The notes below the pieces were generated by a model that saw only the letters and a list, made by a program, of their open reading frames with translations, had not been told where the DNA came from and did no database searches. Both the position numbers and the translations under genes were made by a program. Positions 226 through 5,703 of a DNA stretch of 64,000 bases are shown here, in pieces. The DNA comes from Trichococcus palustris (GTDB lineage: Bacteria > Bacillota > Bacilli > Lactobacillales > Aerococcaceae): NCBI RefSeq assembly GCF_900114465.1, contig NZ_FOTD01000002.1:124001-188000 (forward strand), written 5' to 3'. How positions within the stretch are numbered: position 1 is the stretch's first letter; the number at the start of each line of letters is the position of its first letter.

Positions 226-2622
226 TCAGCTTTTCGGTTTGATTTTCCATATTTCATCAGCATAGCGTCGGATCGTATAGTCTGACGAGAACGGCCCTGA
301 GTTGGCAATATTCATCAATGCCATCCGGTTCCATTTCCCTCGATCGGCATAGATTCTGTCCGCGCTGTATTGCGCTGCGATATAGCTGTCGAAATCCTTC
401 AACAGGAAGTACTCGTCATTGAATTTCACCAAAGAATCAAAGATATCGCGACCTTCTTGTTCGATGCCCGGAATGGAGCCATCGACAAGCATGTTCAGCA
501 CACGCTTCACACGCGGGTTCTTTTCGTAGATATCGTAGGCATGATAGTTGCCGTTGCGGTAATACGACTGAACTTCTTCACTCTTTAGTCCGAAGACAAA
601 GATATTTTCGTCGCCGACATTGTCCCGGATTTCTACGTTTGCGCCGTCCAAAGTGGCCATTGTTATGGCGCCGTTGGACATCAATTTCATATTGCTCGTC
701 CCGGAAGCTTCTTTACCGGCCAAGGAGATTTGTTCACTGATATCCGCGGCTGGAATGATCAATTCCGCAAGGGAAACGCCGTAATTTTCCACAAAGACGA
801 TTTTGATTTTATCCCCGATGGTAGAGTCATTATTGATCAAATCGGCAATCGCATTGATCAATTTGATGATTTCCTTCGCATAATAATAGCTTGGTGCCGC
901 TTTTGCACCAAAAATGAAGACGCGTTTCGGGAAATCCAAAGAAGGATCATCCTTCAGCTGCAGATAGCGGTCCAAAATATGCATAACGTTCAGCAGTTGG
1001 CGTTTGTAGGCATGCATCCGTTTGATCTGCACATCGAAGATGGCAGTCGGATCGATTTCAATCCCCATTGTTTTCAGTACATAGTCGGCAAACCGCTGTT
1101 TATTTTTCAACTTCACGGTTTCTAAAGCTTCCAAGACTTCTTCATCTTCCCGGAATGCCTTCAACAGACGAATTTCCAATGGATTTTTCTTCCATTCTGC
1201 CCCAATCGTATCATCCAACAAATCCGTCAACGCTTCATTGGCGATTTGAACCCAGCGTCGTTGCGTGATGCCGTTCGTTTTGTTGTTGAACTTCTGAGGA
1301 TACATCACAAAGAAATCGTGCAAGGTTTCAGCCATCAGGATATCGGTATGCAGTTGCGCAACCCCGTTGACGCTGTGGCTGCCGATGATCGCCAAATTGG
1401 CCATTTTGATCTGGCCCTGGTCGATGATGGCTGTCCGGTAGGCCAATTCATTTCCATAGATAGGTATTTTTTTCTCGATGTGACGGCGATTTATTTCGGC
1501 GATGATTTGGTAGATGCGCGGCAATAGCTCCGCAATCATGCCTTCCGGCCAGCGTTCCATCGCTTCCTGCAGAATGGTATGGTTGGTGTAGCTGATCGTT
1601 TTTTTCGTTATTTCCCAAGCCTGATCCCAGCCTAAGCCTTCTTCATCCAACAATATCCGCATCAATTCGGGAATTGCCAAAGTCGGATGGGTATCATTGA
1701 TATGGATGGCGGTCTTTTCCGGAAATTGATTCCAGTCCAGCTTCAGTTTTTTGAAGTACCGGATGATGCTTTGTATCCCTGCGGAAGAGAAGAAATACTC
1801 CTGTTTGACGCGCAATAAGCGCCCTTCATAGTTTGAATCATCAGGATACAACACTTCGGTTATGCGCATGACGTCATCCCGTTCTTCCACTGTGGAAAAA
1901 TTGGCTTCTTCGCCATAGGGGATTTCGGCAGACCATAGACGCAGATTATTGATAACCCCGTTTTTGTATCCGACTTGAGCGGTATCGTAGGGGACGGCCA
2001 AAATATTACGCGTATTTTCATAGCGCACCGTCATCTTGCCATCTTCATCGGCCGCGAGATTCACTTGCCCGCCGAAACGGACGATGACGGCCTTATTTTC
2101 TTTTCTGACTTCCCAGACGTTGCGGTTCCGCAGCCAGTTTTCCGGTAATTCAATTTGGTAGCCGTTGACGAATTTTTGCTGGAACAGACCATAACGGTAA
2201 CGGATACCGTTACCATGGCCTGCAAGACCGGTGGAAGCGATGGAATCCATGAAGCAGGATGCCAATCGCCCTAGACCGCCATTTCCCAAAGCGGGGTCCA
2301 CTTCACCTCGTGCTACTTCATCAAAGTCGAGCCCCAGTTCCTGCATGCCTTCGCGCACGCAATCCAGGATGCCCAAATTCAATAGGTTGCTTTTCAGCAT
2401 TCTTCCCGGCAAAAATTCCATGGAAAAATAGTAGACCTGTTTTGATTGATCTGCTATATAATCTTCAACCGTACTTTTCCACTCTTCAGTGTATAGCCCT
2501 CTCACCAAATCGCCGAGCGCGATGAAACGTTCAGTAGTTGATCCTTCATCATAACCATATGCAAATAATTCTTCGAACTTTTTTGTATATTCTTTTTTGA
2601 ATTCTTGTACATTGAATGCCAT
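226..2622 (-). CDS. glgP: glycogen/maltodextrin phosphorylase
   Basis: 798-residue GT35 alpha-glucan phosphorylase that releases glucose-1-phosphate from alpha-1,4-glucans in the cytoplasm. Full family length. The pyridoxal-phosphate lysine lies in the motif EASGTSNMKL near residue 650, and the N-terminal EFLPGR and GNGGLGRLA motifs are intact. There is no N-terminal extension of the kind used for phosphorylation control in eukaryotes. It starts 20 bases after the stop of the upstream glgB-glgA chimera, so the two are probably co-transcribed; in relatives the usual order is glgB-C-D-A-P. With glgC and glgD absent here, it may act on imported maltodextrins rather than on endogenous glycogen (inference). 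Confidence 0.96.
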   Translation of the reverse strand: MAFNVQEFKKEYTKKFEELFAYGYDEGSTTERFIALGDLVRGLYTEEWKSTVEDYIADQSKQVYYFSMEFLPGRMLKSNLLNLGILDCVREGMQELGLDFDEVARGEVDPALGNGGLGRLASCFMDSIASTGLAGHGNGIRYRYGLFQQKFVNGYQIELPENWLRNRNVWEVRKENKAVIVRFGGQVNLAADEDGKMTVRYENTRNILAVPYDTAQVGYKNGVINNLRLWSAEIPYGEEANFSTVEERDDVMRITEVLYPDDSNYEGRLLRVKQEYFFSSAGIQSIIRYFKKLKLDWNQFPEKTAIHINDTHPTLAIPELMRILLDEEGLGWDQAWEITKKTISYTNHTILQEAMERWPEGMIAELLPRIYQIIAEINRRHIEKKIPIYGNELAYRTAIIDQGQIKMANLAIIGSHSVNGVAQLHTDILMAETLHDFFVMYPQKFNNKTNGITQRRWVQIANEALTDLLDDTIGAEWKKNPLEIRLLKAFREDEEVLEALETVKLKNKQRFADYVLKTMGIEIDPTAIFDVQIKRMHAYKRQLLNVMHILDRYLQLKDDPSLDFPKRVFIFGAKAAPSYYYAKEIIKLINAIADLINNDSTIGDKIKIVFVENYGVSLAELIIPAADISEQISLAGKEASGTSNMKLMSNGAITMATLDGANVEIRDNVGDENIFVFGLKSEEVQSYYRNGNYHAYDIYEKNPRVKRVLNMLVDGSIPGIEQEGRDIFDSLVKFNDEYFLLKDFDSYIAAQYSADRIYADRGKWNRMALMNIANSGPFSSDYTIRRYADEIWKIKPKS

Positions 2623-2642: not shown

Positions 2643-4790
2643 TTACTCATTTACTAAAGATTCATATATTTCCAGGTAATCTTTAGCCGGTTCTTTCCAG
2701 CTGAAATCCTGGCTCATCGCTGTTTGTACCATCGCAGCCCAAGCTTTCGGCTGATTCTCGTATACATCCAAGGCCCGGTAGATGGTCCCAAGCAGCGCAT
2801 AGCCGCTGAAGTCCATGAAAGTGAAGCCGGTCCCTTCGCCTGTATAAGCGTTATACGGCACAACGGTATCTTTTAAGCCACCTGTTTCATGAACGATCGG
2901 CAAAGTGCCGTAGCGCAATGAAATCATTTGTGACAAGCCGCATGGTTCAAATGCGGATGGCATCAGGAACAGATCGCTGCCCGCATACATCAATTGCGCC
3001 AACGTGATATCAAAGTCTATCACGGCGCTGAATCGATCCGGGTATTCGGAGGCAAAGTAACGGAACGAATTTTCGTACTCCGCTTCTCCCGTTCCCAAAA
3101 TGGCGATTTGGACATCGCGCGAATTCAATAATTCCTCAGCTTTTTCTTGGACCAATTGATATCCTTTTTGATCCGTCAAGCGTCCGACGCTCGTTATCAA
3201 TGGGATATCAGGGTTCACTTCCAGCCCCAAGCGTTCTTGCAGCGCTGCTTTATTTTTAGCTTTTCCGGATAAATCAGTGCTGGAGAAATGGTAGAGCAGC
3301 TTCGGATCGGTTTCCGGGTTATTGATATCATAGTCGATGCCGTTGATGATCCCTCTTATTTTGCCGCTATTGTAGCGTAGTGCGCCTTCCAATCCTTCGC
3401 CGAATTCCGGTGTTTGGATTTCATTGGCGTAGGATGGACTCACCGTCGTCACGACATCAGAAAAATTGATGCCGCCTTTCAGGAAATTGACGTTATCGTA
3501 ATATTTCACTCCGGCCTCATGGTAGATGTTCATTCCTGTTCCGAAGATGCTGGAAAGTACGACCGGATCAAAGATACCTTGGAAACGGATGTTGTGGATG
3601 GTGATCACTTTACGGATGTCCTTGAATGCCTGCACCCACTTGTAATTGAATCCTAAGCCGCCCATTTCGATTGGCTTCGTCACATTCGCCCAAGCGGTGC
3701 TCTCTTCAGCGATCATGTAGGCATCAGGGGTTCTTTCGAATATTTTTTTGTTCATTTTTTGAAGGAACTGAATGCCTTCACGGTTATGATTGCTGCCGTC
3801 TTCATTCGGTGTCCACGGGCCATCATCGTAGTCCAAGTAGAGCATGTTGGAAACCGCATCGACGCGGATACCGTCCAAATGGAACTCCTCCAGCCAGAAA
3901 ATGGCGTTTGAGATCAGGAAACTGTGCACTTGTGATTTGCCTAAGTCAAAATTCAACGTGCCCCAACGATTGTTGACGCCACGGTTCGGATCCGCATACT
4001 CGAAAGTCGGCGTCCCATCAAAATAGGACAGCGCATAGTCGTTACGGCAGAAATGGCCTGGAACCCAGTCCATGATGACGCCGATGCCTTCTTTATGAGC
4101 CTCTTCAACAAATTCCCGCAATTCCAATAGATTGCCATAGCGCGCAGCCACAGCATAATAGCCGGTGATTTGATAACCCCAAGACGCTTCCAGGGGATGT
4201 TCCATCAATGGCATGAATTCGATATGTGTGTAGCCCATCTCTTTCACATACGGGATCAACGCTTCCGCTAGGTCCTTGAAGGAATACCAACTTCCATCTT
4301 CATGTTTCTTCCAGGAACTGAAATGCACTTCATAGATATTGAGGGGTTTTTGATAAATGGCTTTCCTCTTCTTGTTTGCTTGCCATCTGCCGTCTTTCCA
4401 TTTTTTGTCAGGCATGTCAAGAATGACGGAGGCATCTTTCGGTGGAACTTCATACGCGAAGGAATAAGGATCTATTTTGTATTTCTTCTTGCCGTTCTTA
4501 TCTTCGATATAATATTTGTAGCATTGTCCTTCTTTAGCATCCTCAGTAAAAACAGACCATCCGCCCGTCTTGCCGATTCTATGCATTTCGATAGGTTTCC
4601 AATCGGAAAAATCGCCGACTAATGAAACGCTCTTCGCATTAGGTGCCCAAACCGTAAACCGCCAGCCGTCTTTATTGTCCTCATTGCGTTTTTTACTGCC
4701 AAAAAAACGATAGCTCTCAAAGTGTTCTCCAATGTTAAACAAATACATTTGTTTTTCAAGCTCATTGAGTATGTTCATTTCTGCACTCAT
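2643..4790 (-). CDS. chimeric GlgB-GlgA protein (in-frame fusion, probably non-functional)
   Basis: A single 715-residue frame. Residues 1-385 are the N-terminal part of glycogen branching enzyme: CBM48 module around 35-115, then the GH13 barrel with nucleophile D311 in GIRVDAV and the AEES acid/base region at 361-364. At about W385 (base 3636) the sequence changes abruptly to glycogen synthase, starting near VQAFKDIRK, with ITIHNIRFQGIF and the C-terminal GT5 motif EPCGLSQM at 615-622. Lost are the third GH13 catalytic Asp (HDE region) and C-terminal domain of GlgB, and the N-terminal KTGGL ADP-glucose motif of GlgA. Neither activity should survive. This is what a deletion from glgB to glgA removing glgC and glgD would leave. 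The start has a GAGAGGGGAG ribosome site. An assembly artefact is possible. Confidence 0.9.
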   Translation of the reverse strand: MSAEMNILNELEKQMYLFNIGEHFESYRFFGSKKRNEDNKDGWRFTVWAPNAKSVSLVGDFSDWKPIEMHRIGKTGGWSVFTEDAKEGQCYKYYIEDKNGKKKYKIDPYSFAYEVPPKDASVILDMPDKKWKDGRWQANKKRKAIYQKPLNIYEVHFSSWKKHEDGSWYSFKDLAEALIPYVKEMGYTHIEFMPLMEHPLEASWGYQITGYYAVAARYGNLLELREFVEEAHKEGIGVIMDWVPGHFCRNDYALSYFDGTPTFEYADPNRGVNNRWGTLNFDLGKSQVHSFLISNAIFWLEEFHLDGIRVDAVSNMLYLDYDDGPWTPNEDGSNHNREGIQFLQKMNKKIFERTPDAYMIAEESTAWANVTKPIEMGGLGFNYKWVQAFKDIRKVITIHNIRFQGIFDPVVLSSIFGTGMNIYHEAGVKYYDNVNFLKGGINFSDVVTTVSPSYANEIQTPEFGEGLEGALRYNSGKIRGIINGIDYDINNPETDPKLLYHFSSTDLSGKAKNKAALQERLGLEVNPDIPLITSVGRLTDQKGYQLVQEKAEELLNSRDVQIAILGTGEAEYENSFRYFASEYPDRFSAVIDFDITLAQLMYAGSDLFLMPSAFEPCGLSQMISLRYGTLPIVHETGGLKDTVVPYNAYTGEGTGFTFMDFSGYALLGTIYRALDVYENQPKAWAAMVQTAMSQDFSWKEPAKDYLEIYESLVNE

Positions 4791-4999
4791 TAAAGCACTC
4801 CCCTCTCAACTATATTGTGATTCAAAAAAATCAGAATTGTTATATATCGCTCGATTTAACCTCATCTTCATCATGTTGTTTATCATAACATTTATCGGTT
4901 TGTTTTGCCATAAAGCATAATAAATATATTGAAACAAGTATTATTTTTAGCCATAAATAGGACAAAACTATCCCTTTACAAAAAATCTAATTAACAACA

Positions 5000-5310: not shown

Positions 5311-5703
5311 TCATTTGAATCTTTGCATAAGCAGTTCCACCGTTGGGATATCCGCCGGAGCCCAGTCGAGACGATCGAGATTACAAATGCTTTCCCAACG
5401 CATATCTTGATGCTCGGAAAGTTGCGGTTCTCCCTCTTGCAAGCCGCACAGCAGCGTGGCCAACTCCACGGTTCCGAAAGCATATTCATGAATCACGGTA
5501 ACAAGTTTTTCCTTTACGATAACTTTACAATTGAATTCCTCCTGCATTTCACGGATGAGCGCCTCTTCCTCGGATTCGCCCGCCTCCATCTTGCCGCCCG
5601 GAAATTCCCACAGTCCTGCCAACGATTTGCTGCAACCTCTTTGGGCACAGAAGATTTTCCCATCCTTTTCTAACACGGCTCCAACAACCTTTACCATCTT
5701 CAA
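5311..5703 (-). CDS. mutT: Nudix hydrolase, MutT-like (8-oxo-dGTP diphosphatase)
   Basis: 130-residue single Nudix domain, the normal length for MutT. The Nudix box spans residues 37-59: G37, five residues, E43, seven residues, then REMQEEF at 51-57. The catalytic REUxEE core is present, but the Gly normally two residues after it is Asn (N58). MutT proteins cleave oxidised dGTP to prevent A:T to C:G mutations; other (d)NTPs or CTP are possible substrates. It is monocistronic with its own terminator. Confidence 0.85.
   Translation of the reverse strand: MKMVKVVGAVLEKDGKIFCAQRGCSKSLAGLWEFPGGKMEAGESEEEALIREMQEEFNCKVIVKEKLVTVIHEYAFGTVELATLLCGLQEGEPQLSEHQDMRWESICNLDRLDWAPADIPTVELLMQRFK

Follow-up and report, generated by a model that had tools for sequence, protein, structure and literature searches.

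The open frame described here, in Trichococcus palustris, very probably arose when one deletion of some 3.56 kb struck a glgB-glgC-glgD-glgA-glgP operon; it encodes a most likely non-functional fusion of the branching enzyme GlgB with the glycogen synthase GlgA, in a pathway that was most likely disabled recently. The window, i.e. the whole stretch of DNA analysed, comprises 64,000 nucleotides, and all coordinates refer to it unless a locus or contig is named.

The fusion frame and its two parts

We located the fusion from the list of open reading frames and from profile matches on the minus strand, at 2643..4790, where 715 codons run without frameshift from an ATG at 4790 to a stop at 2643-2645; the plus-strand translation of 2643-4790 contains many stops. 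Residues 1-385 (3636..4790, minus strand) derive from GlgB (86-88% identity to same-genus GlgB), and residues 386-715 plus the stop (2643..3635, minus strand) derive from GlgA, from its residue 153 onward (87-89% identity to same-genus GlgA). The two parts meet at a TGG codon (Trp385, 3636..3638, minus strand) that occurs in both glgB and glgA of relatives and marks the deletion join. A ribosome binding site (GAGGGGAG, 4798..4805, minus strand) lies 7 nt 5' of the ATG, and 10 relatives have a comparable purine-rich stretch aligned with it; the start region of the fusion contains conserved upstream blocks common to 10 relatives. The first-pass annotation had described an open frame without frameshift, a good ribosome site and a switch from GlgB to GlgA at about residue 385 (base 3636), all of which we recovered, adding the strand that it had not given.

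Pfam profiles matched CBM48 (PF02922) at residues 30-110 (4461..4703, minus strand), an incomplete alpha-amylase barrel, the last portion of the GT5 domain at residues 382-472 (only positions 149-238 of the 239 of PF08323) and the GT-B C-terminal domain. Among NCBIfam models, the best GlgB model covered residues 8-388 and the best GlgA model residues 382-713, with GlgA profiles beginning at residue 382 or 386 and ending at 712-713. For GlgB, PRK12313 was matched up to position 387 of 633 (572.8 bits, under the cut-off of 577) and the branching enzyme model TIGR01515 up to position 368 of 607 (467.8 bits, barely above the cut-off of 463.95). For GlgA, the match to the synthase model TIGR02095 began at position 154 of 477 and scored above the curated cut-off, that to PRK00654.1-1 began at position 146 of 477 and scored under its cut-off, and the GlgA profile matches ran through to position 476-477 of 477, covering the C-terminal GT-B domain. 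Because the fusion exceeds the curated cut-offs of both TIGR01515 and TIGR02095, automatic annotation could call it by either name.

The GlgB-derived part retains CBM48 and the motifs VDAVSN and AEEST, which we take to be catalytic GH13 motifs of GlgB, and ends ahead of the third motif (SHDE), which lies beyond the junction. The GlgA-derived part lacks the N-terminal donor-binding domain with the KTGGL motif and retains the C-terminal GT-B domain (FEPCGLSQ). Neither the sister GlgB sequence past residue 385 (with ISHDEVVHG) nor the sister GlgA N-terminus (with FFKTGGLGD) was found in the fusion, which bears out the earlier statement that the third catalytic Asp of GlgB and KTGGL are missing. 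Compared with relatives, 251 GlgB residues and about 150 GlgA residues are gone, together with the whole of GlgC and GlgD. An AlphaFold model of the fusion (19 rows) had a mean pLDDT of 58.9, with residues 390-496 below 50, and was set aside: since an intact sister GlgA modelled as a control (6 rows) scored even lower (mean pLDDT of 45.6, residues 125-264 below 50), the low values may reflect a shallow alignment and have no bearing on misfolding. Foldseek with the fusion model returned branching enzymes only among the first 50 matches listed.

Comparison with intact operons

We compared the locus with 31 loci from relatives, corresponding to 10 of the 11 same-genus genomes with both halves, the closest genus outside Trichococcus (G023) and 20 more; the remaining same-genus genome (G008) was left out because its halves lie on two small contigs. 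In 31 of the 31 loci (10 same-genus, 21 more distant), glgB, glgC, glgD and glgA are separate genes in that order, and glgP was found after glgA within the stretch examined in 22. In Trichococcus relatives and in other Lactobacillales, the glgB-C-D-A-P operon occupies the same place and has the same downstream glgP as the fusion, with 86-89% protein identity in both halves for the same-genus operons, and this operon is also present in Lactobacillus acidophilus (available text of PMC4282360). Base 1155 of the fusion is the last that aligned with sister glgB; the sequence past it aligned with sister glgA. In codon alignments, the missing length was 3,559 bp against 7 of the 10 same-genus loci, 3,560, 3,561 and 3,563 bp against the other three, and 3,541 bp against G023. 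The gene order of the 31 relatives supports the first-pass proposal that one deletion reduced the operon to the chimera plus glgP; the size proposed with it (3-3.5 kb) was slightly too small, the same-genus values being 3,559-3,563 bp. The join is in frame at the TGG common to the relatives' glgB and glgA (in L039, TACAAGTGG in glgB and TACCACTGG in glgA). Over an imperfect stretch at the two deletion ends, 9 of 12 bases match in L039; we dropped a microhomology mechanism, as three shared bases are common by chance.

This comparison shows that an ancestor with the standard operon underwent one deletion running from glgB codon 385 to glgA codon 152, which took the rest of glgB, glgC, glgD and the start of glgA, with a chance probability of one in three that the join falls in frame. 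The product lacks the last part of the GlgB barrel, including the third catalytic Asp, and the N-terminal donor-binding part of GlgA, including KTGGL; the third Asp motif and KTGGL are presumably needed for GlgB and GlgA activity, respectively. As both catalytic parts are cut, neither activity would be expected from enzyme anatomy, and glycogen synthase activity is unlikely given the loss of the N-terminal domain.

The collapse during assembly that the first-pass annotation had offered as an option would mean that the cell has a complete operon from which 3.56 kb was dropped by an assembly or gap-closing error. The assembly is a draft of 52 contigs, and the missing segment is present in all 10 same-genus loci examined. 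However, relatives share only the 3-bp TGG at the two ends of this segment, and assemblers need overlaps far above 3 bp; the join is internal to a contig of 260 kb; and none of the contigs carries the lost stretch, in an assembly whose completeness is given as 100. A 3,570-bp probe spanning the missing stretch had no match anywhere in the T. palustris assembly, the same probe matching 3 of 3 relatives as a positive control (in two pieces in G023). We consider an assembly error very improbable and retain the deletion.

We then searched the fusion protein against the T. palustris genome and 59 relatives: 40 of the 59 had separate strong matches for each half, and none of the matches listed for the 59 spanned both. 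Strong GlgB and GlgA matches were missing in 19 of the 59 (one of them, G007, only 63% complete), showing that absence of the glycogen pathway is frequent in the order. Of 398 genomes sampled from the class, 76 matched at a cut-off of 1e-120, with two candidates being scored in each genome, and T. palustris alone had a match spanning both halves. A plasmid search yielded 32 of 1,053 records in which pieces joined together covered 80% of the fusion at one place; these were rejected as further fusions, the 8 records listed all being annotated as two genes and one of them, from Streptococcus suis, carrying ordinary glgA and glgB side by side.

At two loci (L045:7601-8748 and L031:5927-7074, the latter from T. 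patagoniensis), sister glgC is split between two frames near residue 136-139, which is either a sequencing error or another lesion of a glg gene in this genus; with one sister glgC frameshifted, the comparison operons are not all intact. One sister has a stop in its glgP match that was not retained as a lesion, since the reference used starts further upstream and the stop, at residue 4 of that reference, precedes the likely start. Upstream of the fusion, a NUDIX gene (5311-5703, minus strand) was present in 6 of the 11 relatives' loci searched, at 66-68% identity, so not every locus carries it between the PDE gene and glgB.

Age and constraint

We fitted a codon model to 8 of the 12 available rows, with the tree taken from glgP plus the PDE gene. 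The alignments of the NUDIX, DUF4349 and lipase neighbours were kept outside the model, as several relatives lack these genes or have only part of them. On the T. palustris branch, dN/dS was 0.039 in the GlgB part and 0.085 in the GlgA part, compared with 0.083 in glgP and 0.064 in the PDE gene. Likelihood ratio statistics for a separate value on this branch were 0.65, 2.28, 4.18 and 0.31, respectively, so that only the intact glgP shows a hint of faster change. Family-invariant sites were defined over the 31 relatives with at most 2 rows missing, and over 22 for glgP, which had no match in 9 loci. T. palustris has changed at 0 of 102 such sites in the GlgB part, 0 of 87 in the GlgA part (0 of 189 in total) and 1 of 275 in glgP. 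Where the 10 sisters and G023 all agree, it has changed at 13 of 286 sites in the GlgB part, 5 of 223 in the GlgA part (W476G being one of the five) and 28 of 561 in glgP. Neither half of the fusion shows decay.

Supposing that the fusion has evolved neutrally ever since its origin, a joint fit dates that origin to the last 1-2% (0.01-0.02) of the private branch, with an upper bound just under 8%; as the identical fit gave 3% (0.03) for the intact glgP and synonymous sites are near saturation, this figure is a limit with little resolution rather than a measured age. Either the deletion is recent or the protein is still constrained, and we favour recency because what is left of the active-site motifs in both broken enzymes is retained as well. 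A very recent event is the best supported of the three options of the first-pass annotation, given the unchanged invariant sites and the neutral-age bound near 8%.

The third of these options was retention for a new role, for instance glucan binding through CBM48; a regulatory or scaffold function beside GlgP would be another such role. The open frame, the good ribosome site, the dN/dS values as low as those of intact neighbours and the absence of change at invariant sites speak for such a role, and an open frame with preserved constraint is equally expected of a retained protein. A non-catalytic role would, however, free the active-site motifs, the spanning match is confined to T. palustris within the class sample, and recency accounts for the same data without a new function. 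Nothing in the evidence prefers a new role over recency, and we regard it as possible but very unlikely. On the deletion reading, the fusion protein is most likely non-functional, its frame still being open owing to the recency of the event.

Remaining glycogen genes and known fusions

The downstream glgP (226..2622, minus strand) encodes an intact glycogen phosphorylase of 798 aa and starts 20 bp past the fusion stop. The in-frame join would leave ribosome transit toward glgP undisturbed, and downstream expression need not suffer; given the 20-bp gap from stop to start, the ribosome site and the conserved upstream blocks, glgP is probably still expressed. A search of the genome for glgC, glgD and second copies of glgA or glgB had been suggested in the first pass. 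In the T. palustris assembly, the fusion was the sole GT5 match, with no second GT5 synthase; a profile search gave no match for glgD, and for glgC none above the cut-off, with four weak matches below. GT3 synthase, GH77 MalQ and GlgE (N-terminal domain) likewise had no match in this genome. Elsewhere in the genome lies a eukaryote-type branching enzyme that the first pass had not mentioned. The cell would no longer make glycogen from ADP-glucose; in L. acidophilus, removal of glgA or glgB alone abolishes glycogen (available text of PMC4282360).

The eukaryote-type enzyme is a full-length GBE1-like branching enzyme of 679 aa (L038:7751-9790, minus strand, corresponding to G000:C6:243751-245790). 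By sequence it came closest to structures of branching enzymes from rice and human (670 bits for each), versus 204 bits for the best bacterial GlgB, and its gene is flanked by a phage integrase and an IS605-type OrfB. At E<=1e-100 it was found in 2 of 198 genomes of the order, T. palustris included, and given this rarity it was probably acquired horizontally. A 414-aa protein near the GBE1-like gene and the integrase (L038:4972-6216, minus strand) had no Pfam match at E<=0.001.

These genes bear on the possibility that glycogen synthesis was replaced first, by the GBE1-like enzyme and another glucan-forming enzyme, making the operon dispensable. GlgP normally works in the breakdown direction in cells, and it is the only glucan-chain enzyme that we noticed in the genome, which, with the lack of a GT3 synthase, MalQ or GlgE match, argues against replacement. 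In its favour, a full-length GBE1-like enzyme is present here and in just one other genome of the order, and the Waddliaceae and Criblamydiaceae, which carry a GlgA-GlgB fusion, also retain an extra branching enzyme, glgB2 (available text of PMC7935935), which the enzyme found here recalls, although no synthase was found here. On balance, we hold prior replacement to be very improbable. An exchange of the bacterial system still in progress, with the acquired enzyme and GlgP making branched glucan and the fusion constrained as a glucan binder made of CBM48 and the GlgA C-terminal domain, appears very improbable.

The chlamydial fusion was called exceptional, and as of 2021 was the only one reported; its authors favour one deletion and consider the pathway to be disappearing (available text of PMC7935935). 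As in that case, a single frame here joins synthase and branching enzyme, and the glg rearrangement involved the loss of glgC (PMC7935935). The order is GlgA then GlgB in Chlamydiae and GlgB then GlgA here, and the two fusions are independent. In the chlamydial case, according to the available text of PMC7935935, the old glgP has been lost and a GlgE pathway is present, the GlgA domain of Waddlia showed activity in vitro, and the gene order expected before the deletion was never observed. T. palustris, by contrast, has kept glgP and gave no GlgE match, both catalytic domains of its fusion are cut, and its relatives do show the gene order that preceded the deletion.

Among the open-access papers listed, no report of a GlgB-GlgA fusion was found, the chlamydial GlgA-GlgB alone surfacing, and the matches listed for Trichococcus and glycogen included, judged by titles and the beginnings of abstracts, no paper on this fusion; the available text of the Trichococcus genome paper (PMC6950789) has 0 occurrences of "glycogen". 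A comparison of glycine-betaine (OpuAC) domains suggested by that paper gave 2 matches in the T. palustris genome and 0-5 in the 12 relatives, and so did not discriminate between species. The T. palustris frame would then be a second, independent fusion of synthase and branching enzyme, in another phylum, for which close relatives show the single deletion directly, and it may capture pathway loss at an early stage; ideas on enzyme function are unchanged unless the fusion proves active. Another natural fusion involving a branching enzyme is the MalQ-GlgB protein of Neisseria suica (available text of the review PMC11046441), in which the partner differs (MalQ, placed first) and two domains are described, with no truncation mentioned in that text.
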